This document shows positions 6,548-59,252 of a DNA stretch of 64,000 bases, one piece after another. This stretch comes from Leisingera daeponensis (GTDB lineage Bacteria; Pseudomonadota; Alphaproteobacteria; Rhodobacterales; Rhodobacteraceae), in assembly GCF_019801465.1 (NCBI RefSeq), contig NZ_JAHVJA010000002.1, positions 558,001 to 622,000 on the forward strand, read 5' to 3'. How positions within the stretch are numbered: the first letter of the stretch is position 1; every line of letters starts with the position of its first letter. The notes beneath the pieces are model-generated. The model was not told where the DNA came from. It worked only from the letters and a program-made list of their open reading frames with translations, and made no database searches. The translations under genes and the position numbers were made by a program.

Positions 6548-8066
6548 ACTCACGCTGGCTGCCGCTTTTGCGGCGGCCACCCCGGTTGCGGCGCTGGACT
6601 TGGCCAGCCGGTACCAGGCAGAGCCGCATCTCTCCCCCCTCCCCCGCACCGATGCCGAACGCGTCCGGATCGAGGCCGTGACAGCCCCAGCCACGGATTT
6701 CTCCGCGCCTGAGCCCTTTGAGAATCTGCCCGCAGGCGCCGCCACAGTGCGGGCCCGTTCGGATGACGAGGCGTTCTCGCAGCATTCCGCCAATCTCAGC
6801 TTTGAGCAGGAACTGGAGTTCAAACTCGGCAATGGGCTGTTCAAGAAAATCTGGGTCTTCGCGCCTGCATCAACCTTGGGCTCCGACGGGCTCGGCCCGC
6901 TCTACAACGCACGCTCATGCCAGCGCTGCCACCTGAAGGACGGCCGAGGCCATGTGCCGGAGCAGCCGGACTATGCCTCCACCAGTATGTTCCTGCGGGT
7001 TTCCATACCCGGCCCGGTGCCGTCCGAAATGCAGGTGATCAGCGATTACATCGGCACCGCCCCAGATCCGAATTACGGGCAACAGTTGCAGGATTTCTCT
7101 GCCCCCGGCATCCACTCAGAGTACAAACTGCAGGTCGATTACGGGGAATTCGAAGTCCCCCTGAACGGCGGACAGACTGCAACCCTGCGGCGCCCACTCT
7201 ATACCGCCGCAAATCTTGGCTATGGCCCGCTGGCGGAAGGGGCCATGCTCTCCCCGCGCGTTGCGCCGCCGATGATCGGCCTGGGCCTGCTGGAGACAAT
7301 CCCTGCCGCCGATATCCTTGCCCACGCGGATGAGGAGGACGCCGACGGCAACGGCATTTCCGGCCGCGCCAATCTGGTCTGGTCGCAGGAGTTCAATCAA
7401 ATTATGCTGGGCCGCTTCGGGCTGAAGGCCGGCTCCCCGACGGTGCATGAACAATCCGCCGGCGCCTTTTCCGGCGACATTGGCATATCTACGCCGCTGT
7501 TTCCGGCCCATGCCGGCGAATGCACCAATCAGCAGATCAAATGCCAATCCGCCCCGCATGGCGGCAGTGATTCCCGTGAAACCGAAATCGACCAGCCAAA
7601 CATGGATCTGGTCACCTTCTACAGCCGTAATCTCGGCGTGCCCGCCCGCCGTAATACGGATGATCCAAAGGTTCTGCGCGGCAAGCAGGTGTTCTATGAC
7701 AGCGGCTGCACCTCCTGCCACGTGCCGAAATACGTGACACACCGGCTGCAGGACCGCCCGGAGCAAAGTTTCCAACTGGTCTGGCCTTACTCAGACCTTT
7801 TACTGCACGACATGGGCGAGGGCCTGGCAGACCACCGGCCCGAGGCCCGCGCCACGGGGCGCGAATGGCGCACCGCACCGCTCTGGGGGATTGGCCTGAC
7901 GCAGCAGGTCTCGCCCCGCGCCACCTTCCTGCACGACGGCCGCGCCCGCACTTTGCTGGAGGCCATCCTGTGGCACGGCGGCGAGGCGGAGGCCGCCAAA
8001 ACCCGCGTGGTTGAGCTGTCGCCGCGGGACCGCGCCGCCCTGATTTCCTTCCTGGAGAGTCTTTGA
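6504..8066 (+). CDS. Di-heme DUF1111-family oxidoreductase (cytochrome c-like)
   Basis: About 520 aa from ATG 6504. Two CxxCH c-type heme sites are visible, CQRCH at 139-143 and CTSCH at 402-406, with a di-heme peroxidase-like body between them. This is the DUF1111 (putative thiol oxidoreductase) pattern. From ATG 6504 the protein begins with a basic stretch (RWKRWK) and a hydrophobic stretch ending TPVAA, a plausible Sec signal for periplasmic heme attachment. A start further upstream at 6435 would destroy the signal, so I chose 6504. It overlaps bfr by 44 nt in another frame. Family members sit with imelysins in iron-uptake operons; a redox role on iron is inferred. Confidence 0.85.
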
Positions 8067-9061
8067 TGCGCGCCCTAGCCCTGATCACCGCCCTGGCCGC
8101 CGCGCCCGCAGCGGCGTCTGATATGTCCAGCAGCATCACCGATCGGCTGATCCTTCCGGCTTTCAAAGATCTGGCAAGCAGCAGCCAAGCACTTGCCGAG
8201 GCGGCTGAAGCTGACTGCTCGGCAAAATCCAAAACCTTGCGTGCTGCATATGGCGCGGCATTTGACGCCTGGATCGCCGCCAGCCATTACCGCTTTGGCC
8301 CCACCGAAACAGACAGCCGCGCCTTTGCTCTGGCCTTCTGGCCCGACAGCCGCAGCAAAACCCCCAAAGCGCTTGGCAGCCTGATCGGCAGCGAGGATGC
8401 CGGTATTACCGACCCGGCCGGTTTCGCAAGCTATTCCATCGCCGCACGTGGCTTTTACGCATTGGAATACCTGCTGTATGACCCGGAACTCTCCGCCGTC
8501 GGCAGCCCGGACTACCGCTGTGCCCTGACCCGCGCTGTAAGCACCGACATTGCCGCCACGGCACAAGCCATCGCCGCCGACTGGGAGAAAAACTACGCCA
8601 CCGAAATGCGCGTTCCCGCCGCCCGCTACCGCAGCGAAGAGGAAATCACCCAGGAGCTGCTGAAGGCGCTTACCACCGGGCTGCAAGTGCTGGATGACAT
8701 GCGCCTGGGCCGCCCGCTCGGCACCCATGACACCCCCCGCCCCAACCGCGCCGAAGCCCGCCGCTCAGGGCGCAGCCTGCGCCATGTGCTGCTGTCGCTG
8801 AACGCGATGGAGCCGCTGGCAATAGCCTTGGCGCAGAAAAATACAGAACTGAAAGCGGATCTAGCTCATGAGTTCAGCAAGATCCGCAACCGCGCCGAAA
8901 CCCTAGACGATCCTGTCTTTGCCGGCGTAGCGGACCCGGCCTCCCGCATCCGGATCGAGGCGCTGCGCCAGCAGGTGAAGGACCTCCGAAGCCTGGTCTC
9001 GGACCGTCTCAGCCCGGCACTCGGCGTGGCAGCCGGCTTTAACTCTCTCGATGGCGACTAA
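8066..9061 (+). CDS. Second imelysin-family protein
   Basis: A 331-aa exported protein. The signal peptide is [18 protein letters not shown]. The imelysin fold signature is recognisable, but the GxHxxE motif reads GFYALE (about residues 129-134), with tyrosine in place of histidine. Cysteines at ADC and YRC resemble other imelysins. ATG 8066 overlaps the last base of the preceding stop (TGATG), giving coupling; a TTG at 8063 is less likely. Together with the di-heme protein and the DUF1513 protein it forms the conserved periplasmic iron cassette. Confidence 0.88.
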   Translation: MRALALITALAAAPAAASDMSSSITDRLILPAFKDLASSSQALAEAAEADCSAKSKTLRAAYGAAFDAWIAASHYRFGPTETDSRAFALAFWPDSRSKTPKALGSLIGSEDAGITDPAGFASYSIAARGFYALEYLLYDPELSAVGSPDYRCALTRAVSTDIAATAQAIAADWEKNYATEMRVPAARYRSEEEITQELLKALTTGLQVLDDMRLGRPLGTHDTPRPNRAEARRSGRSLRHVLLSLNAMEPLAIALAQKNTELKADLAHEFSKIRNRAETLDDPVFAGVADPASRIRIEALRQQVKDLRSLVSDRLSPALGVAAGFNSLDGD

Positions 9062-29270: not shown

Positions 29271-29444
29271 ATCACTCGGGTCCGGCTGGTCTCCTGTAAA
29301 CGGATCGGGCGCAAGCTTTGCGCCCACAATCAACCTAGGCCGGGAACTGATCTTGTGTAGGGGAACGCTCGGGAACCGAGCCCTGCGGACTTGGTTCAGT
29401 GTGGCGGAGGGGATGGGCCTGACGTCCAACCTTCTCTGCTTTTT

Positions 29445-32400
29445 CTATTCGAGATCGGGGACAGGAAACTCGTACTCCAGAGCCTCGGCTTTATCGACAC
29501 CGGTAAGCGTCACCTCGCCACGGATTTTGGCCGCGAGTTGCTCAAGGGGGTTGAAAATGAAGCGAACCTTGAGGCAACCGTCACCCTCCTCAAGACCAGC
29601 AACCACGGCAAGAAAGAAATCCGGATCGTTCTGTGCCGCCTCTACCTCGCTAGGTGTGAGAGTGATGTCTGTTGGGAACGCTGAGCCCGAGCTCATCTTG
29701 ATTTCATAGCACTGCCGCAACTCATCGATCGCATCCACGCCGATTCCCCGCTTCGAGCGAACATCTTGTATTTGCTCGGGGTTGAGCCGAAGCGCCCGTC
29801 TGACGGCTTCTAAGGCCAGTTGTTCCCGGTCACTGACAGGCGGCAGAACCGTTCGGTCGGCAGGTTTCGCGCTGCCCGCGTTGCTACCGGAACCGGATGG
29901 GAACGTTCGGCTCGCCTGGCCTTTGGTTCGGGACTTGACGAAGATCACCCCGCTGCCACTGGCGCCTTCATTGACGATTGAGCCCTGCGTGGTCTCAAGA
30001 TCTTCAATGTCCCGGAGCTTCCGTACCTGCACGGGCGTTTGGTTCTGGGCCGCAGGCTTGCTGCGAGATGGCTTCTGCGTCTTCCTCTGGCTTTCGGTCC
30101 GTTCGCTTGCCTGAGCCTGAAGGGCAGCTAGCCTCGTGGCGTTGCCGGCGGCATCTGGTTTCGTAGACGGGAGAACGATCTGGCTTGCACCCCAGCCCTG
30201 GTTCGCTTTCTGCCATACTGAAGCCCACGCCCAAGCAAGCTTCTGCCTGTCACCGTCGAACAGAGAAGCAACAGCTTGCCCACCGGCATCTGATGAGCCT
30301 GCATCTTCCAACGTGCGCACAATCATTGTCATTGGTTCAGACATCATATGGGCGCGAGCCGGGATACAGATCTCGGGATGCCCCTCCAGCTCAGCAGTAA
30401 TTTCCAGAGAAGGATCAATGACTAAGCGAGATCGCATCAGTTCTTCCCATGTGCAATTCAAGCTTTCATGAAGTTTAATGTCAGTGCGGATGAGTTCATC
30501 AGCCAACAACGCGACAGCTTCGGCAAAGAGCTTGCGCTTGTTCTCTCCTTCCAGGATTCCGGCAGTGCTCAAGGACTTTGGTCGGAAGCTTTCGAGACGA
30601 AGGTGGGTGACACCGAGGAATTCAAACAAAGGTTCAACGTCGGTAAAGCTGCTCAGGCCAAGGCGCCAGACTGTCAAACCGGGAATTTCGGCCTGTGCTA
30701 TTGCCTCTCCATCGAGCACATACATCGGGCGACTCGTCGACCACTCGGTTCCCGTCCAGAGCGGCAGGCGCCGGAGAGTGGACCGCAACTGCGGTGTAGC
30801 GTCCGATATGAGCCCGGCTAGTGACCGAAATGCCATCACCATGACGCCCCGGTCTGATGGCGAGAGAGTCGACATTCGCGCAATATCGCGAAGTACTTCG
30901 ACGCAATCCTTCGCGGACGGCTCCGGAATTGCTAGCGAAACCCAAAGTGGTTCTAAACCAGATATATGAGGTGCGAACACACGATACTCGCCGAATATCC
31001 GCGGGCCCCGAAGAATGGCTTCGGGAGAATGCCAACTGTCATCGGCGAGAAGCAGTCCGTCCCGCCCGGGAGATGCCCGGAATGCATTTCTCAGGCGCTG
31101 TGGTGTCAGGGCACGGCCAGCCTTCAGATCCACTGCGTTCGAACGGAGGTCGGCAGCAAGAAGTTGATAGATTGTATGAACTTGGTCGGTGACTACCTGC
31201 GTCAGCGGCTTTTCTCGCAAACCCTCAAGTCGCTCGATCAGATCATCGCCGGATGGACCTAGTTTAATGCCCAAAGCCTTCAGCAGATCGGGCCGAATGG
31301 CGTTCTGATCATATTTTGTAAGGTAAGCTCCCCTGTCAGTACCGTACGTGAGACGGTTCGCTTCTGTGGGCAGCGCAAGCTGGGTCGGTGCCCGAAGGGC
31401 GCCGTTGCCGTTCGGTAGCCACACTGCTGCTGAAAGACGCGCTAGCCAAGTGGCTTGGACTTCGCGAGAGTTGGTCCAGTATCCATTATAGCCGACAACG
31501 CACTTTGAAATTTGGTAATCTGAATAGCGCCGTTCCCACCCACGACTAAGTACAGCCAGAAGAGCCAGCCCCCGTTTCTTTCGAAGTCGGGCTGGCCCAG
31601 ACTGAATGTTCTCAACAACCGCTTCCATATCAGGTGACCAGCGGTCGTCTAGAAGATATTGCTCACCGTATCCACCAGCCCTGATCGCCCTGAGCTGCGC
31701 GTCGGGGCGGTGAACGCCCGCGACAGCGCTGGCGGGCCGTGTGTCGCGCGACCATCGTACTTTCTCGTTCAAGGGCACGATGAGGCGCGGATCACGCGCA
31801 ACGCCGAGCGCCGAAAGGAATCTCTGTGCCCCCGCTTCGCTGCGACCACGCTCATGCTTTAGTAACTTCGCATACTCAGGATCCACCCATACTAGGCCCG
31901 GCGTTCGGCCAGCTGCTTTCGCAAAGCTGTGAGTTTCGCGATCAATCTGTGCTGGAAGATACGCCTCGTGAGGACGGGACCATGCTCTTTCAGGCCGCTG
32001 AGAGTCTGGCATGTATGTGATCGTCCGCAGTTCGATATTGGAGCCAATCTTTGCTCCCATCGTCCGCTGTTCGTCGCGAGGAAGGTGCACCCAAGCGTCC
32101 CGAAGTGCGATCAGATCGTCGTTATCGAGACGCACTGGCTCCACGGCATCTTTGTTGGATCTTGCCAGGAGCTTCAGAGCTTCCGCAGGTTGATCGCAAG
32201 CCTCTCGAAGAATTCTCATCTCTTTGAGTTTAGCGATGACCGTTTCTGCATCTTGGTTGTCGGCCTGGTAGGCCTGATGCAGTGGCAAAGCGAGGCCAAG
32301 ACGCCCCGCGAGGCTTTGCGGGTTGTCGTGAAGGACAAGGATCCGTGGGCCGCCCCGTGGTGGACATTCTACGATAGTGCCATCGGCAAGAAGGAAGGCG

Positions 32401-33944
32401 CTTTTTTCCAGAAACTCGCCCCATAGTCCCTGCTCAAGCGCTAGAGCTGCTATTGAAACAAACCAAGAGGGATCGCGGTGCCCAATCGCGTCGGGGTGAT
32501 CGAAAAGTTCCAGAGAATCCGAAAGGTCAAGCGCTTGTGGATCTTCGAGATCATCCAAGACCAAGCGCCATCGCCCATCTCCATCTCGGCACCCGGGGTC
32601 TAGTGCCATTCGGCCTGGCGCGAGCAGTTCAAGGTCTTCTGGCGTCAGCAGGCCATCAAGTCCCGCGTCTTCATAGACGATTTGCGAGAGCTCAACCTTA
32701 ACTGTTCTTGCAGGTAGGCGAAGGTCAGATCTCAACCGCTTGTGGCATGTTTCGACCACGTCTTGAGCAAATGCGGCCTTGATCCAGTCAGCGGTTTCTA
32801 GCGTCTCCGTCATGAGCGGGACGTGCGTCCAAGCAGCTGCGGGCTCGCGTGCAAATGCATTGAGTGCCACCGCACCGAGCAGATGGCCGAGATCAGCTAG
32901 GCGCCTCTTGTTCCACGAGGTAGCCAAGATTGTCGAGCGTGCGCCATCAGGGTCGAACTGCGCATTTAGGCTGATTGGTGCGGCTATTTCGATCGGAAGA
33001 GGTATCCGGTCATGGAGGGCACCTTCCAGGTGCAGGTCTGCGGAAACGCAGATCCCGAGCGGCGTCGTCTTGCCAGTTGCCTTATTTCGTCGCGCCTCGC
33101 CGGCGGTCACCGGTAGCTCGGTCCAGTATCGATCAAACTTCTGACCGGCAAGCTCCATCGGCTCTTGGATGATGAGACCATCGTGGCGGACGGAGCATGT
33201 CACGGCGTTCAACACAGCTTCGACATCCCGCCCTGGCTCCACTTGTATGGAGTAGCCGCGAACCGATCCCGGCGCATCCAAATCGACATAGCTGAGCCGA
33301 CGAATGTGCCGTAGGAATTTAAGGCTATCTACCCCGAGGTTTTCCACTGCATCTGGGATGTCCGCAACATCGACCTCAGGGGCGAGTGGCACGACAAGCA
33401 TCGTCTCCCTACGTTGCGGATCATATAGTCCTTCGACGGATTTGGCGGGCTCGACGATCTCGGGCGCTTCGTCGAGCATCGCGAAATGAAAGGGCGCGCA
33501 ATGCATCTCGAGCGGCCCGCCGAGCGATTTCAGTGTCTTCTGACCAATTCCAAACCGCCCAGAAGCCTCATCATCTGTGGCCTTCGTGGAAAGCCAAGGC
33601 AAAACCATCGCTCCCAAATGAGCAAGCGAGACGGGCTTTCCATTGTGTATTATCAGCAGTTCTTGGCGCGGTGAGTGCCGAAGACCGATCCGAAGCTCAG
33701 ACGCACCAAGATCGTCGGCGTTTTGCAAAGCCTCGGAAAGACCCTGAAATGGTCTGGGGCTAAGCATACTGGCGCCGACCTCGGCGCCCCTTTGGCTTGC
33801 ACGGAAGATCGAGGGCTGTCGACGTATGATTTCTGCGAACTCAGCGATCGCACCCTGCGCCCATTCTAGACTGGGGCTTTGAGGCACCCAACCGGTATCA
33901 GGCCACGACTCGCATAGTTTCTCAGCAGCTTGTCTGCCCTGCAT
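29445..33944 (-). CDS. Giant sacsin/NOV-like GHKL ATPase with C-terminal DUF3883-type nuclease domain
   Basis: About 1499 aa. The N-terminus is an HSP90-like GHKL ATPase of the sacsin/NO VEIN type: N-box EALQNADD (E71, N75), HNGKP at 100-104 and glycine box GRFGIGQKT at 129-137. A long middle has no motif I recognise. A Lys/Gln/Ser-rich linker follows, then a DUF3883-like tail with a PD-(D/E)xK pattern: GVDAID, YEIK (E1414, K1416) and TPSEVEAAQNDPDFFLAVV. ATG 33944 is the first good ATG, but its ribosome site is weak. TTG at 33974-33972 lies 12 nt downstream of a GAGGGG and may be the real start. The gene follows the DUF4357 gene and the helicase gene on the same strand. Such ATPases occur in bacterial defence islands; function here is inferred. 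Confidence 0.85.
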   Translation of the reverse strand: MQGRQAAEKLCESWPDTGWVPQSPSLEWAQGAIAEFAEIIRRQPSIFRASQRGAEVGASMLSPRPFQGLSEALQNADDLGASELRIGLRHSPRQELLIIHNGKPVSLAHLGAMVLPWLSTKATDDEASGRFGIGQKTLKSLGGPLEMHCAPFHFAMLDEAPEIVEPAKSVEGLYDPQRRETMLVVPLAPEVDVADIPDAVENLGVDSLKFLRHIRRLSYVDLDAPGSVRGYSIQVEPGRDVEAVLNAVTCSVRHDGLIIQEPMELAGQKFDRYWTELPVTAGEARRNKATGKTTPLGICVSADLHLEGALHDRIPLPIEIAAPISLNAQFDPDGARSTILATSWNKRRLADLGHLLGAVALNAFAREPAAAWTHVPLMTETLETADWIKAAFAQDVVETCHKRLRSDLRLPARTVKVELSQIVYEDAGLDGLLTPEDLELLAPGRMALDPGCRDGDGRWRLVLDDLEDPQALDLSDSLELFDHPDAIGHRDPSWFVSIAALALEQGLWGEFLEKSAFLLADGTIVECPPRGGPRILVLHDNPQSLAGRLGLALPLHQAYQADNQDAETVIAKLKEMRILREACDQPAEALKLLARSNKDAVEPVRLDNDDLIALRDAWVHLPRDEQRTMGAKIGSNIELRTITYMPDSQRPERAWSRPHEAYLPAQIDRETHSFAKAAGRTPGLVWVDPEYAKLLKHERGRSEAGAQRFLSALGVARDPRLIVPLNEKVRWSRDTRPASAVAGVHRPDAQLRAIRAGGYGEQYLLDDRWSPDMEAVVENIQSGPARLRKKRGLALLAVLSRGWERRYSDYQISKCVVGYNGYWTNSREVQATWLARLSAAVWLPNGNGALRAPTQLALPTEANRLTYGTDRGAYLTKYDQNAIRPDLLKALGIKLGPSGDDLIERLEGLREKPLTQVVTDQVHTIYQLLAADLRSNAVDLKAGRALTPQRLRNAFRASPGRDGLLLADDSWHSPEAILRGPRIFGEYRVFAPHISGLEPLWVSLAIPEPSAKDCVEVLRDIARMSTLSPSDRGVMVMAFRSLAGLISDATPQLRSTLRRLPLWTGTEWSTSRPMYVLDGEAIAQAEIPGLTVWRLGLSSFTDVEPLFEFLGVTHLRLESFRPKSLSTAGILEGENKRKLFAEAVALLADELIRTDIKLHESLNCTWEELMRSRLVIDPSLEITAELEGHPEICIPARAHMMSEPMTMIVRTLEDAGSSDAGGQAVASLFDGDRQKLAWAWASVWQKANQGWGASQIVLPSTKPDAAGNATRLAALQAQASERTESQRKTQKPSRSKPAAQNQTPVQVRKLRDIEDLETTQGSIVNEGASGSGVIFVKSRTKGQASRTFPSGSGSNAGSAKPADRTVLPPVSDREQLALEAVRRALRLNPEQIQDVRSKRGIGVDAIDELRQCYEIKMSSGSAFPTDITLTPSEVEAAQNDPDFFLAVVAGLEEGDGCLKVRFIFNPLEQLAAKIRGEVTLTGVDKAEALEYEFPVPDLE

Positions 33945-33978
33945 ATTGTCCGACAAATCATTAGAAGCCGACAAAGCG

Positions 33979-34311
33979 CTATACACCCCTCGCTTCTTTG
34001 ATCGTCTTGCCGTCAGACGGCCTGCGCCAGCTTTGGGGGCCGCTGCAATTCCCATCCTTGACGACGCCCCCAGCCACACTTGAGCTGCCGAAGAGATGAT
34101 CGCGCGAGAAACGATACAGGTCCGGGTCAGTGTCCGGGACGAGGACACCCTGCCGAACCAGACGGTCCCGCTCCTCACGATCCCGTTTCACACGAGGAGA
34201 GCCCTCCCGCATCGCCGTGGAGCCCTCGCGGACAAGGAAACCACCGGCCTCGGGGCGGCCATAGGCTTGAGCCTTCTGCGGACGCATTACAAACCAATCG
34301 TTCTCGCTCAT
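33979..34311 (-). CDS. Small DUF4357-domain protein
   Basis: A 110-aa protein. The DUF4357-like pattern is VKRDREERDRLVRQGVLVPD ... YRFSRDHLFGSSSVAGGVV. This small domain is usually found at the C-termini of nuclease or restriction-related proteins, here free-standing. ATG 34311 has an AGGGA ribosome site. It starts 17 nt after the helicase gene stop and is followed by the sacsin-like gene within ~35 nt, so it is the middle gene of a three-gene operon. It could be an adaptor or DNA-binding accessory; this is inference. The longer in-frame start at 34353 would overlap the helicase gene. Confidence 0.7.
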   Translation of the reverse strand: MSENDWFVMRPQKAQAYGRPEAGGFLVREGSTAMREGSPRVKRDREERDRLVRQGVLVPDTDPDLYRFSRDHLFGSSSVAGGVVKDGNCSGPQSWRRPSDGKTIKEARGV

Positions 34312-34328
34312 GCATTCCCTCTTTCGTT

Positions 34329-37300
34329 CTATTTGATCAATGGCAGAGCACACAGCGTATTCACCAGCTGCATTTGCTCAACAGAATTGCACTTCGCCTC
34401 GCGCAATCGGGGCGCTCCAAATACCAATGCGAGTCCCTTGGCGCGGGAGAACGCAACATTGATGCGATTTAGCGAAAACAGAAACTCCATCCCGCGCGAG
34501 GTTTCTTCAGCGGAAGATGCCGTCATGGAAACCAGGCAAACCGGTGCTTCTTGTCCCTGAAACTTGTCCACGGTTCCGACGCGAACGCCCAACGGAAGGG
34601 CATCCCGCAAAGCGTTTACCTGTGCGTTGTATGGGGCGACGACGATGATGTCCGTATCGCGCATCGGCCGCGTGCTGCCGTCCTTCTCCGTCCAGCTGCC
34701 GTCAAGGAGGTCAGTGACGGTTTTGCCAATAGCGTCGACTTCTTCCTGTGCGATCTGGGCATTACCCTCATGCGGGACCGGCACCCAGAAAGCTCCGGCT
34801 TCGGGGAGCGCCGTGCCTGTCACGCACTGGTTAGCCGTATCAGGATGGCTGGTCAGTCGGCCTTCATACACCTGTTCTGAGACAAACCGACAGACGTCAG
34901 GGTGCATGCGCCGTGAAGTGGGAAGGAAAATGCCCCGGTCGGCTGGAACCGTCGCATGCTCACCGAGCATCCAATCCAGGCACGACAGGTTCGCAGGCTC
35001 GGGATGCGCTCCCTGAATGACTTGCGGCAACTGGCGTGGGTCGCCCACAAGGACGATGTTTCGCGCGGCACGCCCCATGGCAGCCATGTTGGCAAGTCCG
35101 ACCTGACCTGCCTCGTCCACGAACAGCCAATCAAAGGCCTGAACATTTTCGTCGCGCGAAAAGAACCACGCGGTGCCGCCCACGACATGCCCGGTTTTCG
35201 CGGCTTCTGCGTTGTCAGTCGTACGATGTACAGGGCAGCCTTCGGGATAACCATCCTCGATGCTGGAAACCTTGTGGACGAGATCAAGATTGATCGGCAG
35301 GTCTTCGTCTTCCAAAGCTGAAAGACAGCCCATCAGCACATTCCTGATAGCCTCGTGGCTGTTGGATGCGACGCCGACGCGATGGCCCTTGCGCACCAAA
35401 GACAGGATCGCGCGCGCGCTCACATAGGTCTTGCCGGTACCAGGTGGCCCCTGGATCGGCAGGACCGTTCCATCCATGTCATTCACCACGGCAATAGTGC
35501 CCGCTACAGGGTCTGCCCCGCCCAAAAGATCGCCCCGCGGGCCAGAGCGCAGACGCGGTGCAGCGCGCGAGAGCAGGTCATCCACGGCCGTATATTGGCC
35601 CGCGCCGCATTGATCATCGATCACATCACGCAAAGCACTGGCAATGACGCCTGTCTGGATCGGCCAGTCCGGATGCAGCGTCAGCTGTTCCGTCAGTAGG
35701 TCGGCCTTGCCCGGGCCTGCTTTGACGGTGATCTGACGAGCGCGGCGATCCATAGACTCGATCCCAACCGTTGTAGGTGGGCTATCGAATACGGGAACCG
35801 TCGCCTTCTTGCCGCTCCGCAGTTTCGTCTCCTGTTCGGGATAGGTGTATCGGCGCGCGAAGGATCGCTTGACGGGTTCGACAGGACCCGCTGCCTCAAG
35901 CCCGCCAAGTGCATCGAGATCGTCGAGCAGATCATCCTCGTCCTTTGCGGTGCTATCGAATACGGCCCATTGCGCGGGCTTTAACTCGCGGTTGTGAAAG
36001 ACGCCGAGGTTGAACAGCATATCCTGCCGCGCCTCGGGCAAGCCTGATGTTGCTAGCAGGTTGCGCAGAGCTTGCGTGTCGGCGTCCTCTTCGACTTCTT
36101 TATCGCCTGCATCCGGGGCAAGTTTTGGCCAAGGGCCGACAGGTCGGATGCCTACCAGCCAGTCGCGCAATTCCTCGGTCGAGATGCAATCGACGCGGTT
36201 GTAATCCTCGATCTCGTCCAGAATCTGCTGGTCTTGCGTTTTACGCCAACGCTCATAGGCCACGACCGAGCCACCCGCTGTCTTGACCTCACCGTCCCGC
36301 TTGCGGTCGTAAAATGCTTCCATCGATTTGATGGAATAGTTTGGTTCCGACCCGATCAGCCCGCCGCGGACCACGGCGAACAAGTCGACGAAGCGCCGTT
36401 CCCGGAGCAGCCGGTCGAGGAAAGCTTCACCGATACCATATTTCGTGGTCAGGCGTTTCAGCGCGGTGATCTCGTATGGCGCGTAGTGATAAATGCGCGC
36501 AGTGGGGTATTGCGAAATCCGCGCGCGAAAGAACGCCAGCAAGTCCGACAATGCCCGCGCTTCTGTGTCGTGGTCATGGGCCCAGAACGCCTGGAACTGC
36601 CCGTCGAACCAGATGCCGTGCAGATATTCGAGGCCGCCTTCATAGTGAGGATCGCCTTCGATGTCGTAGAACAGGTCGCCCGTCTGGGGTTCCGGCAGGA
36701 GGTCGAAACCTTTGCCAGGCTCCAGTGCCCGCAGTTCAAAATCTGGCTCCCCGGTTTTGCGGGCCTGTTGCAGGCGGGCCTGAGTGACCAATCGGGCCTG
36801 GGTGTTTTCGGCCATTCCGCGCACCGGGTGATCCAGCGTCGAGAGAGCCTCCAATGTGTTAACACCCGCTGCTTCTAGCTTTTTCACCTGACCACGACTG
36901 ATGTTGGCGACATTGAACAAGCTGTCTTCGGCGTGCCAGACGCTGTTGCAATGTTCGACCCAGCGGCACAGACCGCAATCCGCACATGGCACCGGGCGTG
37001 TTGGCTGCGGATCGGCGACGAAGGCTTCCAACCGTTGTCGCGCCATCCGAGCATAGGAAGAGTAGTCTGCCAGGCGCAGCGTAGCGCGGGTGCCGTCTCC
37101 CAATTCGACATGCGCGAACTCGGGCACCACCCCCTGAATTTCCGCCAACAGATCGGAATACAGAACCAGCTGAAGCACATGTTTGGGATCGGCCCGACGT
37201 TTCAGCTTGGTGTCGGCCACCTCGTAGCTGAACGGTCCGAGCGCTGAGGGTGTCTCAACACGCTCCAGGAAGTCGGACCAGCCGCCCCAGTTCCCCGACA

Positions 37301-37607
37301 GAAACGCGCCCTGAAACACGACGTCCGGACCAGTAGTGAGCGCCGCGCGCGTGGTTTCAGCGTTTTCGCCAAGTTTGCCGCGCGCGATTTCCATGACCGT
37401 GCGCCCGCCCTTTTTGAGGCGAGCCAAATGCGCGGCCTCGTGGGCATCGCCCTGCTTTTGCAACAGTGCTGCGTCTTCGGTGTCGTCGCCCGGCTCCGGG
37501 CCCGTTCCCCGCATATGTGCCAGATCAAGGGTGGTCGCATGTGCGCAGCCTGTGAAGCGCATGAGATCCGTTGCGGACAGAAAGATGCGACCGTCGAGAT
37601 CCCTCAT
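34329..37607 (-). CDS. RecB-like nuclease / RNase H-like / SF1 helicase fusion
   Basis: A 1092-aa protein of the TM0106 RecB-like nuclease-helicase type. Residues ~1-225 are a PD-(D/E)xK nuclease with D112 (SDFL), D132 and K134 (ADTK). Fe-S cluster cysteines are C21, C211, C214 and C220, with an extra C208. Residues ~310-480 look like an RNase H-fold exonuclease (FYDIEGDPHYEGG, YHYAPYEITALKRL, YNRVDCISTEELRDWL). From ~720 lies a UPF1/Dna2-like SF1 helicase: GPPGTGKT, DEAGQ (~832), GDPRQLP, VDKFQGQE (~1014) and NVAFSRAK. ATG 37607 has a GGAG ribosome site. First gene of a minus-strand operon; the promoter must lie in 37608-37712, shared with the WYL regulator. Confidence 0.88.
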   Translation of the reverse strand: MRDLDGRIFLSATDLMRFTGCAHATTLDLAHMRGTGPEPGDDTEDAALLQKQGDAHEAAHLARLKKGGRTVMEIARGKLGENAETTRAALTTGPDVVFQGAFLSGNWGGWSDFLERVETPSALGPFSYEVADTKLKRRADPKHVLQLVLYSDLLAEIQGVVPEFAHVELGDGTRATLRLADYSSYARMARQRLEAFVADPQPTRPVPCADCGLCRWVEHCNSVWHAEDSLFNVANISRGQVKKLEAAGVNTLEALSTLDHPVRGMAENTQARLVTQARLQQARKTGEPDFELRALEPGKGFDLLPEPQTGDLFYDIEGDPHYEGGLEYLHGIWFDGQFQAFWAHDHDTEARALSDLLAFFRARISQYPTARIYHYAPYEITALKRLTTKYGIGEAFLDRLLRERRFVDLFAVVRGGLIGSEPNYSIKSMEAFYDRKRDGEVKTAGGSVVAYERWRKTQDQQILDEIEDYNRVDCISTEELRDWLVGIRPVGPWPKLAPDAGDKEVEEDADTQALRNLLATSGLPEARQDMLFNLGVFHNRELKPAQWAVFDSTAKDEDDLLDDLDALGGLEAAGPVEPVKRSFARRYTYPEQETKLRSGKKATVPVFDSPPTTVGIESMDRRARQITVKAGPGKADLLTEQLTLHPDWPIQTGVIASALRDVIDDQCGAGQYTAVDDLLSRAAPRLRSGPRGDLLGGADPVAGTIAVVNDMDGTVLPIQGPPGTGKTYVSARAILSLVRKGHRVGVASNSHEAIRNVLMGCLSALEDEDLPINLDLVHKVSSIEDGYPEGCPVHRTTDNAEAAKTGHVVGGTAWFFSRDENVQAFDWLFVDEAGQVGLANMAAMGRAARNIVLVGDPRQLPQVIQGAHPEPANLSCLDWMLGEHATVPADRGIFLPTSRRMHPDVCRFVSEQVYEGRLTSHPDTANQCVTGTALPEAGAFWVPVPHEGNAQIAQEEVDAIGKTVTDLLDGSWTEKDGSTRPMRDTDIIVVAPYNAQVNALRDALPLGVRVGTVDKFQGQEAPVCLVSMTASSAEETSRGMEFLFSLNRINVAFSRAKGLALVFGAPRLREAKCNSVEQMQLVNTLCALPLIK

Positions 37608-37712
37608 GGCTACTCCATTACCTTTGCAAATCAATCTCCAAGGGAATCACCTCGACAGACCGCAAGGTCATCAATACCGTTTGAGGGTGTCAATTTCTGG
37701 CATGGAGATCAA
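37608..37712. promoter_or_regulatory. Divergent promoter region between the helicase operon and the WYL regulator
   Basis: 105 nt separate the two divergent starts. GACC-GCAA-GGTC (37658-37669) is a small dyad near the middle and could be part of an operator. GGAG sites at both ends are the ribosome sites. Exact promoter boxes are not clear by eye. Confidence 0.45.
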
Positions 37713-38696
37713 ATGTCTTTTGCAAAAGCGCAGGATTTGCTTCGGCTTGCCCAGATGGCGGCGTCCCGCCGGGGAGGTGTCAGCCTTGAGGACATCTGCG
37801 CCGAGTTCGATGTGTCGCATCGCACCGCTCAACGGATGACCGAGGCTCTCGAAGCAACTTTCGTGAATGTTTCGACCACAGACGATGCCGAAAGGCGGCG
37901 TTACTGGCGGATGGACGCACCCTTGCCAGACCGACTGCAGCCCCGGCAGGAAACGGCGATCGAGGCGCTGGAAATTGCGGCACGTACCGCGCGCGACGAA
38001 GGGCGAATAAGGCACTCACGCGCTCTGGAGGATCTCCGCGACGGGCTGCTGGCGCGTTTGAATCCAAGGGATGCGCTTCGGTCGGAAGCCGATGCAGAAG
38101 CGGTGCTGGCTGGATTAGGCCAGGTCACGCGCCCAGGCCCTACCGTCACACTTAAGCCTGCAGTGACAGATGCTGTCATCGAAGCGCTGCGCGGTCCGTT
38201 CCGGCTGCGCGTCTGCTATGGCGCTCAGGGTGCTGCGCCGCGCGTGATCGAACCGCATGGCATGCTGCTGGGGCACCGCAGTTATCTCGTCGCACGCCAA
38301 CCCGCGCGTGGAGAAGACATCCTGAACTTCCGCATGGATCGGATTTATGAGGCGGAGGTTCTGAACGAGAGCTTTCAGCTGGCCTCGGGTTTCTCCCTAG
38401 AGACCTATGCCGCTCAGGCGTTTGGTGTCTATCAAGACCCTGAACAATATAGCGAAGTCGTGTGGCGCTTCTCGACGGAAGCCGCTGAGCGTGCCGCCGA
38501 ATTCCGTTTTCACCCGACCCAAGTTGTCGAGCCTCAGGACGATGGCAGCCTGATCGTCAGGTTCAAGGCGGCGGGCTGGCTGGAAATGGCATGGCACCTT
38601 TATCAATGGGGCGACAAGGTGGACGTGTTGGCGCCTGCGGGCTTGCGCGAATTGATTGCGGGCCACCAGAGGTCGGATTTCGACGCTCTGCCATGA
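37713..38696 (+). CDS. WYL-domain transcriptional regulator (YafY type)
   Basis: A 327-aa regulator. The N-terminal winged helix (RRGGVSLEDICAEFDVSHRT, then AQRMTEAL) is at about residues 17-50. A WYL domain follows with the signature altered to SYL at 190-192 in HGMLLGHRSYLVAR, then a WCX-like C-terminal extension. WYL regulators such as BrxR and CapW repress defence operons and respond to nucleic-acid or nucleotide signals. Its divergent position next to the nuclease-helicase operon fits that role. ATG 37713 has a GGAG ribosome site; the in-frame upstream ATG at 37428 lies antisense to the helicase gene. Confidence 0.85.
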   Translation: MSFAKAQDLLRLAQMAASRRGGVSLEDICAEFDVSHRTAQRMTEALEATFVNVSTTDDAERRRYWRMDAPLPDRLQPRQETAIEALEIAARTARDEGRIRHSRALEDLRDGLLARLNPRDALRSEADAEAVLAGLGQVTRPGPTVTLKPAVTDAVIEALRGPFRLRVCYGAQGAAPRVIEPHGMLLGHRSYLVARQPARGEDILNFRMDRIYEAEVLNESFQLASGFSLETYAAQAFGVYQDPEQYSEVVWRFSTEAAERAAEFRFHPTQVVEPQDDGSLIVRFKAAGWLEMAWHLYQWGDKVDVLAPAGLRELIAGHQRSDFDALP

Positions 38697-38718: not shown

Positions 38719-38892
38719 ATGAACAACGGTCTTGAGCATGCAGCCTTGAAAGCAAAACAACGCGCTATTCGCGAAGGCTTCCCCGAAACCATGGGACTGC
38801 GCGCCCATCGCGCCATCAGTTGGATCGGCCGTGCAGAAGCTTGCGGCGAGGACGATGATGCGCGTTTCATTTTCCTTTGGATCGCATTCAAA
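38719..38892 (+). pseudogene. 5' fragment of a HEPN-like gene, truncated by an IS
   Basis: The first ~58 codons read MNNGLEHAALKAKQRAIREG ... LRAHRAISWIGRAEACGEDD ... FIFLWIAF. This resembles the N-terminus of a conserved HEPN-type family in which IAFNAAY is followed ~150 residues later by an Rx4-6H catalytic motif. That motif is absent here. The reading frame runs on into IS sequence and stops at 38991. It starts 23 nt after the WYL gene and was probably co-transcribed with it. No continuation is seen beyond the IS. HEPN assignment is by recall of the family pattern. Confidence 0.55.
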
Positions 38893-39948
38893 GCGCCTTT
38901 GTTGCGCAAATCTGTTGATAGGCAGGCTTCCGCTTTCCCCGGGCGGACTTATCCTACGGGCTCTGTGACTGGTGTGCCCAGAGCGGTGTAGCGATTTTGC
39001 GCGGCGACGCGGATTTGGATTTCCGCAACTTGTCTGTCGAAGTCGCGTGCCGTGAGTAACTGCCCAAGAAGTGTCACACAGTTCACCTTGCTCTCAACAC
39101 GGCTTCTGCGGTGGTATCCGCTCCATCGCCGCCACAGGGCACGGCCCAGGTATCGCGACGCGTTGACCGCTTATTTTCGGGCGGTGGCCCCGGCGCTTGT
39201 GGGCTTCCAGGGTTTTGCGTTCTTGCGAGGCGGAATGACGGCGTCGGCACCACGGGCAGCAATCGCGTCGTGACATTTGCGCGTGCCATAAGCTCCGTTG
39301 GCGGTCACTGATCCGATGTCCTGATCAGACGGGATTTAGACGAGCAGTTCCGGCAGCATCGGCGCATCACCAACATTGCTGGTGGTGATCTCGACCGCCC
39401 GAACTTCTAGCGTTACTTCGTCGATCCGCATATGAATTTCTCGCCAAATCCGGCGTTTGGGGCCACCATGCTTGCGGGCGTTCCACTCCCCTTCACCCTC
39501 GGCCTTGATGCCGGTGTTATCGATAAGAAGATTCAGCGGGCCGGTTCCACCGCGATACGGCAGGCTCACGTTCAGTGTCTTCTGACGGCGGCAAACTGTG
39601 CTGAAATCGGGCACGACCCAATCCCGTCCAACGAGCCGCAGCAGACTTTCGACAAACCCGGTCGCCTGTCGCAGCGGCCTGCCGAACAACACCTACAAGG
39701 TCAGGCAGGTCTGAATCGCAGCGTCGCTGAATTACTGTTGTCGGCGCCGCTTGTCGCTCTGCGGTGGCACCCAGACCATCTCAGGATCAATTCAAACCGA
39801 AAGTGATCCGCGCTGCCTTAGTGCTGTGTTGTACGAAGGCCAGTTCCTAGTTTTGTACTACCTAGGGACCCAACTTCTTATGCTGTTTCAGCTATCATAC
39901 TGTATTCACGTAGTGAATTCCCAGCCGTCTTTTTGGCAACAAAGCCGC
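38893..39948. mobile_element. Decayed IS5-family insertion sequence
   Basis: The ends form imperfect inverted repeats: the left end at 38893-38908 (core CCTTTGTTGC) and the right end at 39933-39948 (GCAACAAAGCC). They match at 13 of 16 positions when one is reversed. Between them lies a full-length but inactivated IS5-type transposase on the minus strand. Length is about 1056 bp. The element interrupts the HEPN-like gene. No target duplication could be confirmed by eye. Confidence 0.75.
38949..39869 (-). pseudogene. IS5-family transposase pseudogene with six in-frame stops
   Basis: Read on the minus strand in one frame over 307 codons, the translation follows the IS5 transposase throughout: NWPSYNTALRQRGSL, DPEMVWVPP, PLRQATGFVESLLRLVG, LLIDNTGIKAEGEGEW, RKHGGPKRRIWREIHM, DIGSVTANGAYGTRKCHDAI, ALWRRWSGYHRRSRVE and RDFDRQVAEIQIRV. 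Premature stops lie at 39858-39860, 39792-39794, 39732-39734, 39693-39695, 39336-39338 and 39171-39173; the natural stop is at 38949-38951. The expected ATG reads GTC. No frameshift is needed. Decay is by substitution only. Confidence 0.85.
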
Positions 39949-57501: not shown

Positions 57502-57945
57502 ATGACCGACACAATCCCTGCGCGTCTCGCCGCGCTGAAGACAACCCCGACGCCGGAATTGAAGGCGCAGTGGCGCACCCTGTTTGACAGCGAACCGCCA
57601 GCATTTAATCGCCGCTATCTCGAGAGCCGGTTGGCCTACCGCATCCAGGAGCTGGCCTATGGAGGCCTCAAGTCCCAGACCATCCGTCGGCTGGAGCGGA
57701 TCGGTAATGACCTCGACGGCGGTGACCGCAAGAAGAGCCGCGTCCGCGCGAACCTCAAACCCATCGTCGGCACGCGGCTTGTGCGCGAATGGCAGGGTGT
57801 CGAGCACGTTGTCACGGTCACCACCGACGGGTTTGAATGGCAGGGCAGACCCTACAAGTCCCTCTCCGCCATCGCCCGCGGCATCGCCGGCACTCGATGG
57901 AACGGCTGGGTGTTCTTTGGCCTCAAGAGCCGGAGGAGCGCATGA
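57502..57945 (+). CDS. DUF2924 protein
   Basis: A 147-aa protein of DUF2924: PAFNRRYLESRLAYRIQELA, RLVREWQGVEHVVTV and GFEWQGRPYKSLSAIARGIA are its hallmarks. This domain is a habitual partner of large serine recombinases in alphaproteobacterial elements and may help recombination; its role is unproven. Overlaps the recombinase start by 4 nt (ATGA). Confidence 0.88.
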   Translation: MTDTIPARLAALKTTPTPELKAQWRTLFDSEPPAFNRRYLESRLAYRIQELAYGGLKSQTIRRLERIGNDLDGGDRKKSRVRANLKPIVGTRLVREWQGVEHVVTVTTDGFEWQGRPYKSLSAIARGIAGTRWNGWVFFGLKSRRSA

Positions 57946-59252
57946 TCGAGCCTTCTCCGCGAAAACTTCGTTGCGCGATCTACACCCGGAAGTCCTCCGA
58001 AGAAGGGCTAGAACAGGAGTTCAACTCCCTCCACGCACAGCGCGAAGCCTGCGAGGCTTACATCGCCAGTCAACGCTCCGAGGGCTGGGTCCTTCTTCGT
58101 GACCACTACGACGATGGAGGTATCTCCGGGGGCACCTTAGATCGCCCTGCCCTGCACCGCCTTCTGCAGGACATCGAGGACGGGCTGATCGATGTCGTGG
58201 TCGTCTACAAGATTGACCGCCTTAGCCGTGCACTCACGGACTTCACCAAGCTGGTAGAGGTCTTCGATCGGACCGGAGTGACCTTTGTCAGCGTGACGCA
58301 ATCCTTCAACACCACGACATCCATGGGACGGCTGACATTAAATATCCTGCTCAGCTTCGCCCAGTTTGAACGTGAGGTCACCGCCGAACGCATTCGAGAC
58401 AAATTCGCCGCCAGCCGAAAAAAAGGCATCTGGATGGGGGGCATGACGCCCTACGGCTATCGCGTTGAGAACCGCAAGCTTGTTCCAGACGGCGAGCATG
58501 TCGAACACGTCCGCTGGATCTTCGAACGGTTCATAGAGATCGGCTCGGGAACAGAGCTGGCCCGCGAAGTTTGTAAGCGTGGCATTCGCACGCCAAAGGG
58601 CAACCGGATCGACAAGAAATTCATCTATCGCTTGCTGAACAACCGCACCTATATCGGCGAAGTTGCCTACAAAGGGAACGTTTATCCCGGCGAGCATGAC
58701 GCGATCATCGATCGTACGACCTGGGACAAGGTCCATGCGATCCTTCAGGAAAGCCCGAGAAAGCGTGCGGCCCGAACCCGTGCCGAGACCCCCGCACCGC
58801 TGAAGGGACTGTTGTATGGCCCTGACGGCGCCGCATTCTCGCCGTCCCATACGCGGAAAGGCGCAAGGCTCTACCGATACTACGTGAGCCAAACCGTTCT
58901 GAAGCATGGCGCCGGCACGTGTCCCATAGGTCGTGTCCCCGCGGGAGAGATCGAGGCCGCGGTCATCGAGCACCTTCGCAAGGTGTTCCGCCAACCCGAG
59001 ATCATCGCGGGGACTTGGAAAGCTGCAAAGACGCGGGATGGGGCCGTATCCGAGGCCGAGGCTCGTACGGCACTCCAGCAGCTCGATCCACTTTGGGATG
59101 AGCTCTTCCCGACCGAGCAGGCCCGTATCCTGGCGCTGTTGGTCGAGCGGATAGACATTGGCCCGGAGGGCCTGAACATCCGTCTCCGGATCAACGGGCT
59201 AACCTGTCTCGCCCGCGAGATGTTGTCTGGCGACAACGGAGTAGCGGCATGA
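57942..59252 (+). CDS. Large serine recombinase
   Basis: A 436-aa site-specific recombinase. The N-terminal resolvase domain has the nucleophile S18 or S19 in AIYTRKSSEEG, and VVYKIDRLSRALTDF and LNILLSFAQFEREVTAERI. A recombinase domain follows (TPYGYRVENRKL, NRTYIGEVAYKG), then the zinc-ribbon region, where one expected pair is weak (GAGTCPIGRVPA). It probably integrates or excises the element. Overlaps its neighbours on both sides by 4 nt. Confidence 0.93.
   Translation: MIEPSPRKLRCAIYTRKSSEEGLEQEFNSLHAQREACEAYIASQRSEGWVLLRDHYDDGGISGGTLDRPALHRLLQDIEDGLIDVVVVYKIDRLSRALTDFTKLVEVFDRTGVTFVSVTQSFNTTTSMGRLTLNILLSFAQFEREVTAERIRDKFAASRKKGIWMGGMTPYGYRVENRKLVPDGEHVEHVRWIFERFIEIGSGTELAREVCKRGIRTPKGNRIDKKFIYRLLNNRTYIGEVAYKGNVYPGEHDAIIDRTTWDKVHAILQESPRKRAARTRAETPAPLKGLLYGPDGAAFSPSHTRKGARLYRYYVSQTVLKHGAGTCPIGRVPAGEIEAAVIEHLRKVFRQPEIIAGTWKAAKTRDGAVSEAEARTALQQLDPLWDELFPTEQARILALLVERIDIGPEGLNIRLRINGLTCLAREMLSGDNGVAA

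Follow-up and report, generated by a model that had tools for sequence, protein, structure and literature searches.

We analysed a 64,000-nucleotide stretch of the Leisingera daeponensis genome (GCF_019801465.1, contig NZ_JAHVJA010000002.1, positions 558,001 to 622,000; hereafter the window, whose numbering is used throughout) in which a WYL-type regulator gene lies divergent from three minus-strand genes encoding a predicted Dna2-like nuclease-helicase, a DUF4357 protein and a sacsin-type ATPase that matches TmtA. In comparisons with related loci (L numbers) and genomes (G numbers), the regulator and helicase recurred as a head behind which the remaining genes, the tail, were swapped for unrelated ones, with most swap junctions at the helicase stop codon. 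We interpret the locus as a modular anti-phage operon in which the head stays constant and the tail can be exchanged, a reading to which we assign a probability of just under one-half (about 0.48).

Near-identical heads carry different tails

The window and L042 were 99.73% identical over 7776 bp, an alignment that ended 19 nt before the helicase stop codon; beyond it the window carries DUF4357-TmtA and L042 carries McrBC. This piece belongs to 31,280 bp shared at 99.83% identity with the same-genus genome G687, running through regulator and helicase (34348 to 64000 in the window, with the match continuing to 65627, beyond it). The chromosomes themselves differ: the sequence flanking the L042 tail has its counterpart at another place in the window's genome (79% identity), as the window's flank gene does in G687 (84% identity). 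Because genome G143 has the same island part with an McrBC tail at 93 to 95% identity, the window's tail is probably the newcomer. A TmtA locus (L003) and an McrBC locus (L148) were likewise 94.6% identical over 4380 bp.

Junctions were located in pairs drawn from 34 labelled loci (remnants and unclassed loci left out) whose tails differed and whose DNA was 84% or more identical across the end of the helicase. The alignment stopped within 60 nt of the helicase stop in 16 of 19 such pairs. The other three, formed by the window, L145 and L005, in which DUF4357 precedes three different TmtA types, stopped 305 to 337 nt past it, at the end of DUF4357. In the window the first junction falls at 34344 to 34348, where DNA identity to the differently tailed L042, L043, L044, L045 and L046 stops 15 to 19 nt before the helicase stop, and the second at 33992 to 34024, where the alignments with L005 and L145 stop 305 and 337 nt past it. 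No convincing repeats were found to flank the tail cassette within the window.

The head and the tail differ in their history. Synonymous divergence (dS) between the window and L003 was 1.32 for the helicase and 1.99 for the WYL gene, and 0.43 for DUF4357 and 0.30 for TmtA. On a quick helicase tree of 36 loci and three outgroups, built without bootstrap and with the L011 and L150 remnants counted with their class and L052 as Mre11-Rad50, the tail class changed at least 16 times (minimum, 5; shuffled mean, 17.4; 40 of 200 shuffles as low), so tail class barely tracks the helicase. The Mre11-Rad50 and McrBC classes were somewhat clustered on the tree (4 of 500 and 21 of 500 shuffles as low).

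The head recurs with many tails

Of 148 relatives, 14 carried the helicase, as did 37 of 394 family genomes and 9 of 385 class genomes; these samples overlap and include the window. Matches were also found in 258 plasmid records, and in 60 of these they spanned 80% or more of the helicase; viral contigs held 32 relatives, five at 76 to 81% identity. We surveyed 71 stretches, comprising 22 plasmid neighbourhoods that we chose from the 60 listed of the 258 matches, 46 of the 49 helicase places found outside the window in the relative, family and class genomes, and the window itself with L002 and L003. The places not included were G687:C6, which is the record of L012, and two pieces in G766. Gene calls followed a longest-open-reading-frame (ORF) rule and their labels came from BLAST against reference genes, a procedure that may overlook small genes.

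In 43 of the 71 stretches the helicase was at least 70% identical in its best segment. By our own assignment, and counting near copies (L012, L047, L151 and L152; L009 and L016), the tail was McrBC in 16 of these stretches, TmtA/sacsin in 10 and Mre11-Rad50 in 4 (L052 also has HEC-07 and a TmtA-like protein). PsyrTA occurred once, as did a tail of a 476-amino-acid (aa) protein with a BrxH-like helicase and, in another stretch, a mix with weak GajB and BrxD matches (L167, where only a helicase piece is left); two stretches held tail remnants (L011 and L150), three had no recognised tail (L014, L147 and L049) and five were unclassed (L146, L155, L156, L158 and L166). The tail comes immediately after the helicase, and in several loci the helicase stop codon overlaps the next start codon.

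Where the helicase was more divergent (36 to 63% identical), it again stood beside Mre11-Rad50, McrBC, Zorya, BREX or ubiquitin-like genes, with the genes arranged in a different order. A ubiquitin-like set (multiubiquitin, ThiF and DUF6527) stands directly behind the helicase in L018 (12410-16029), and such a set plus E2/UBC directly before it in L062 (5609-8966). In L160 to L162, helicases of about 60% identity lie directly behind Mre11-Rad50 genes, in L161 and L162 also before a HEPN gene, a layout reminiscent of the way MRN and DNA2 resect ends.

The combination of helicase, DUF4357 and the window's TmtA type occurred in only 3 of the 71 stretches (the window, L002 and L003); L005 and L145 join helicase and DUF4357 to other TmtA types. 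An earlier note on this DNA, made from its letters alone, had taken the three genes as the unit of a new defence system that it could not match to a named one. The ORFs that it listed are all present, and the features that had suggested a defence-type operon, namely the divergent WYL gene, the nuclease modules and two ATP-driven proteins, stand. The three genes as a unit do not: many other helicase loci carry unrelated tails, and since the set is rarely adjacent and the ATPase matches a named system (see below), a new, unnamed three-gene system is rejected as written.

A WYL regulator, a candidate operator and a nuclease-helicase form the head

The helicase gene occupies 34329 to 37607 on the minus strand (1092 aa, ATG at 37607) and the WYL gene 37713 to 38696 on the plus strand (327 aa). 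With the start codons that we chose, on which the intergenic distances depend, the three minus-strand genes are 17 and 34 bp apart, within tens of bases as first described, and 105 bp separate the WYL gene from the helicase ATG. Since the helicase-DUF4357-TmtA order also occurs in two other genera (Nitratireductor arenosus and a Hoeflea metagenome-assembled genome) and the ratio of nonsynonymous to synonymous divergence (dN/dS) was 0.06 to 0.16 for the four genes (window versus L003 and L002), the arrangement is more than chance and the genes are under purifying selection.

The head enzyme is a predicted Dna2-like nuclease-helicase, in which a RecB/Cas4-type nuclease with a Cys cluster is joined to a UPF1/DNA2-type superfamily 1 (SF1) helicase. 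It covered the whole TIGR03491 profile (TM0106 family RecB-like nuclease; 259.6 bits, cut-off 97.45) and matched Pfam RNase_H_2, a DEDD-type domain, and AAA_11/AAA_12. Among 21 aligned helicases, the window's included, the nuclease residues D112, K134, Q146 and Y150, the DEDD-type residues and the Walker residues were identical in all 21, D132 was kept in 20 and the four-Cys cluster in 19. The structure model had a mean confidence (predicted local distance difference test, pLDDT) of 69.8. Its best Foldseek match was Dna2 (E value of 9.3e-24), but with a template-modelling (TM) score of 0.36 and a root mean square deviation of 26; the helicase part aligned structurally to IGHMBP2, UPF1 and Dna2 at Z scores of 19 to 21.5 (Dna2, 19.8 to 20.0). 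Because this re-alignment covered mainly residues 385 to 1092, the lack of RecB-nuclease entries in it is no evidence. As names for the helicase, Mokosh (MkoA/MkoC) was rejected because it matched only the C-terminal helicase part (e.g., residues 814 to 1087; 154 bits in all), and Druantia (DruK), Hhe and PLuB because their matches were partial or weak.

The regulator scored above the Pfam cut-off for WCX (1.3e-13) and WYL (1.4e-7) and below it for HTH_11/HTH_23. A WYL homologue, fragments included, was labelled in 35 of the 43 nearest stretches. The gap between the divergent genes, which the earlier note had taken as a shared promoter region, holds a candidate operator, TGCCA-N5-TGACA at 37688 to 37702 (minus strand), which begins 95 nt ahead of the helicase ATG and overlaps a TTGACA box. 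The general form, TGTCA-N5-TGACA, was present at 8 or more of 10 positions in 37 of 41 WYL-helicase gaps, mostly starting 94 to 98 nt before the helicase ATG; the motif was defined from these same gaps, so its shuffle values are descriptive. This conserved palindrome supports a putative control of the operon by the WYL protein. In several loci whose gap contains an additional small gene, the operator motif occurs twice. A protein of about 90 aa without a Pfam match lies between WYL and helicase in 9 of the 43 stretches (e.g., L006, 8035-8304), often together with a second operator-like site ahead of the helicase.

Beside the regulator, an ORF at 38719 to 38991 (plus strand) was labelled HEPN in the survey, as were homologues, remnants included, in 28 of the 43 stretches. 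In the near-identical L042 copy the first 59 aa align at 79.7% identity with a 221-aa HEPN-annotated protein that adjoins the WYL gene of a plasmid, and in the window the homology stops near 38900. The HEPN-like remnant of the earlier note is thus confirmed as a remnant of a protein so annotated, but Pfam detected no HEPN family in the full-length 221-aa protein. Just past this truncated gene, the segment 39000 to 39950 is matched by numerous fragments in related genomes (as many as 24 in a single genome) and is probably an insertion-sequence remnant.

The tail of the window is DUF4357 with a TmtA ATPase

The tail begins with the DUF4357 gene (33979 to 34311, minus strand; 110 aa, ATG at 34311; Pfam DUF4357, 1.1e-11) and ends with the gene for the GHKL ATPase (29445 to 33944, minus strand; 1499 aa, ATG at 33944). 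The ATPase matched PADLOC profile PDLC03968, TmtA, at 1318 bits over residues 74 to 1571 of a 1577-aa ORF, which is nearly its full length, and the sacsin N-terminal ATP-binding domain NF047352 of NCBIfam at 55.7 bits (cut-off, 50). We take PADLOC TmtA to be the Tiamat defence system, which Millman and colleagues reportedly showed in 2022 to be a single-gene anti-phage system. A search of the ATPase against Pfam returned no family, hence not the DUF3883 earlier proposed for its C terminus. The residues named in that proposal fared unevenly: N75 was identical in all nine aligned sequences (window included), together with the ATP-binding residues E71, Q74, A76, D78, G129, G132 and G134, but the C-terminal E-x-K motif, E1414-I-K1416, aligned in only four (the window, L002, L003 and L004). 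Sequence searches of solved structures gave only weak antibody matches for the ATPase (E values of 0.014 to 0.86) and no match for the DUF4357 protein, whose structure model (pLDDT, 46) was set aside.

Among 292 genomes of the order and among 21 of the genus, the only one with the ATPase was the window's own. Relatives occurred in five plasmid records at 29 to 31% identity and at two loci in a species-representative collection at 86 to 90%. The same DUF4357 is common to the window, L002, L003, L005 and L145 and is followed by three TmtA types (PDLC03968 in the window, PDLC03971 in L005 and PDLC03964 in L145). The McrB of the L042 tail (7811-8230) has a DUF4357-like N terminus (Pfam 4.7e-8; 33.3 bits, below the cut-off of 38.4) that is 52% identical to the window's DUF4357 protein. 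Proteins of 137 to 138 aa without a Pfam match occupy the place of DUF4357 between helicase and tail in L052 (9690-10103) and L046 (6678-7094), with relatives in L149, L157, L159 and L167.

The operon lies at the edge of an island bounded by a tRNA-Ser site

The island is 46.7 kb long and the operon occupies its edge; tRNA-Ser(TGA), on the same strand, is 46.7 kb away. The ATPase stop codon lies 9 bp before a 34-nt motif (29402 to 29435, minus strand) that resembles a tRNA-Ser 3′ end, although it has hardly more than CCGCCAC in common with the end of tRNA-Ser(TGA). Genome G672 provides an empty site: sequence matching window position 29343 lies 56 bp from its tRNA-Ser(TGA), and the match to position 76079 onward, a contiguous right flank, begins at the same tRNA. 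A like motif was present within 140 nt behind the tail in 11 of 25 tail ends compared, partial in L005 and about 5 kb further on in L148; it was not found behind the tail in the other 12 (L002, L003, L145, L149 and L005 were judged by eye). Among the 21 genus genomes, the motif occurred with at most three mismatches in five, four with the helicase and one (G677) without it, and G681 has the helicase and no motif. In G677 the copy (C1:1691649-1691678; L177, L181) has three mismatches and none of the reference genes in the 19 kb around it. The motif is not a complete tRNA, as no tRNA was found in the window, nor an Rfam family, given two chance-level matches in the one stretch tested (L043, 11700-12200); it is a probable attachment remnant.

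The island also holds a serine recombinase (57837-59252), none having been identified beside the tRNA, and an AAA_21 ATPase (61482-63743) and, in its part beyond the window, an Mrr-type endonuclease and a HerA-like helicase (L143, 2013-3227 and 4817-6649). These four are possibly further defence genes.

Joint action or stacking under one promoter

In the modular operon that we propose, the head would comprise the WYL regulator, the palindromic candidate operator at the −35 box and the Dna2-like nuclease-helicase, and the tail would be a cassette of effector genes that fills the space from the helicase stop codon to the tRNA-Ser island end, here DUF4357 with a Tiamat-type ATPase. Judging from their families, the WYL protein would keep the operon low until repression is released on infection or DNA damage, and the helicase would unwind and degrade DNA ends with its Cas4-like and DEDD nucleases. 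TmtA may be an ATP-gated clamp that cuts via a C-terminal nuclease, by analogy with the mechanism hypothesised for the GHKL-Shedu protein VcSduA (PMC12137116; sources given by PMC number are cited from part of their text), and its cuts would make ends that the helicase destroys. Tails may be exchanged by crossover near the helicase 3′ end and in the shared island end.

Several observations weigh against this interpretation. Heads lack a recognised tail in L014, L147 and L049, and the helicase is broken or partial with its tail kept in L045, L054 and L167, so neither part strictly needs the other. Only a fragment of the WYL gene is left in L043, and the ORF calls gave none for WYL in L044 and L145 (outside the 35), where tblastn nevertheless finds the first 100 WYL residues. 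The tail chemistries are unrelated to one another, and the 19 junction pairs share loci, many of them close relatives, and are not independent.

The same tail-less loci, broken helicases and unrelated chemistries make joint action and mere stacking under one promoter nearly equal. If genes were simply stacked, the helicase would be a stand-alone defence gene near island ends, and self-sufficient systems would land behind it and share its promoter without cooperation. This alternative is a real possibility: TmtA and PsyrTA tails match systems that PADLOC lists on their own, and tails can stand several in a row, as in L052 (Mre11-Rad50, HEC-07 and TmtA-like) and in L153 and L154 (McrBC and a BrxH-like pair). 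It accounts less readily for stop codons that overlap the next start codon, for junctions placed at the helicase stop, for the small genes (DUF4357 and the 137- to 138-aa proteins) between helicase and tail in several loci, and for the retention of the helicase with Mre11-Rad50 and McrBC in other gene orders.

A dedicated system in which helicase, DUF4357 and ATPase evolved as a fixed three-protein complex is very unlikely: L002 and L003 do have the same three genes in the same order, all under purifying selection, but the set is confined to three stretches, the dS of DUF4357 and TmtA is far below that of the helicase, and the same head carries other tails. It is equally improbable that the helicase is a repair or maintenance gene of mobile elements with defence genes as chance neighbours, since, for all that Dna2- and RecB-type enzymes serve repair elsewhere and the helicase matches so many plasmid records, its presence in family and class genomes is patchy, it stands beside a WYL gene and its neighbours in the 43 nearest stretches are mostly defence families.

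Within the modular operon reading, a more specific and rather doubtful proposal is that the WYL/operator/helicase head is a plug-in immune core, whose regulator would induce a machine that processes DNA ends and works together with unrelated effectors (Tiamat/sacsin, McrBC, Mre11-Rad50, PsyrTA and DrmD-bearing tails) captured as cassettes between the stop codon and the island end, so that immune specificity could change in one recombination step. Catalogues usually treat defence systems as gene sets of fixed composition; within this one genus a natural swap has placed two different effectors behind a 99.7% identical head. Such natural near-isogenic pairs make a core that serves many effectors directly testable against promoter lending, and profile naming of one gene at a time (TmtA, PsyrTA) would overlook a shared core.

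Comparison with known systems

Each main part of the locus belongs to a described family. In searches of an open-access library, which excludes most subscription papers, we found no description of the head, the swappable tails or the junctions, and the head and swaps are not described in the portions covered of PMC11090510, PMC5704561, PMC9122601, PMC12458937, PMC12839542, PMC3710099 and PMC12629846. The last of these describes Pseudomonas GI-Hotspot 9, where Tiamat and type IV restriction likewise share one island hotspot; that part of its text describes no unchanging first gene at whose stop codon tails are exchanged.

Like Dna2/UPF1-type enzymes and TIGR03491 proteins, the head enzyme combines a nuclease and an SF1 helicase in one protein; it differs in an extra DEDD/RNase_H_2 domain between the two and in being found with defence genes. 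The window's tail ATPase agrees with Tiamat nearly end to end in its profile match. Unlike Tiamat, reportedly a single-gene system, it closes an operon that also encodes a nuclease-helicase and a DUF4357 protein and that has a divergent WYL gene.

BrxR and other WYL regulators (PMC9122589 and PMC9122601) resemble the window's regulator in being encoded at defence loci. BrxR binds a pseudo-palindrome with half-sites 5 nt apart that overlaps the −35 box (PMC9122589), and the window's candidate operator, on sequence grounds, has the same geometry and spacer. The window's WYL gene differs from BrxR-type loci in being divergent from one helicase gene that is followed by changing tails. CapK/CapS (PMC13373217), as far as the cited text extends, is similar in that one regulatory module stands ahead of diverse immune operons; the window's regulator is of the WYL type, and its constant head includes an enzyme gene and not only regulators.

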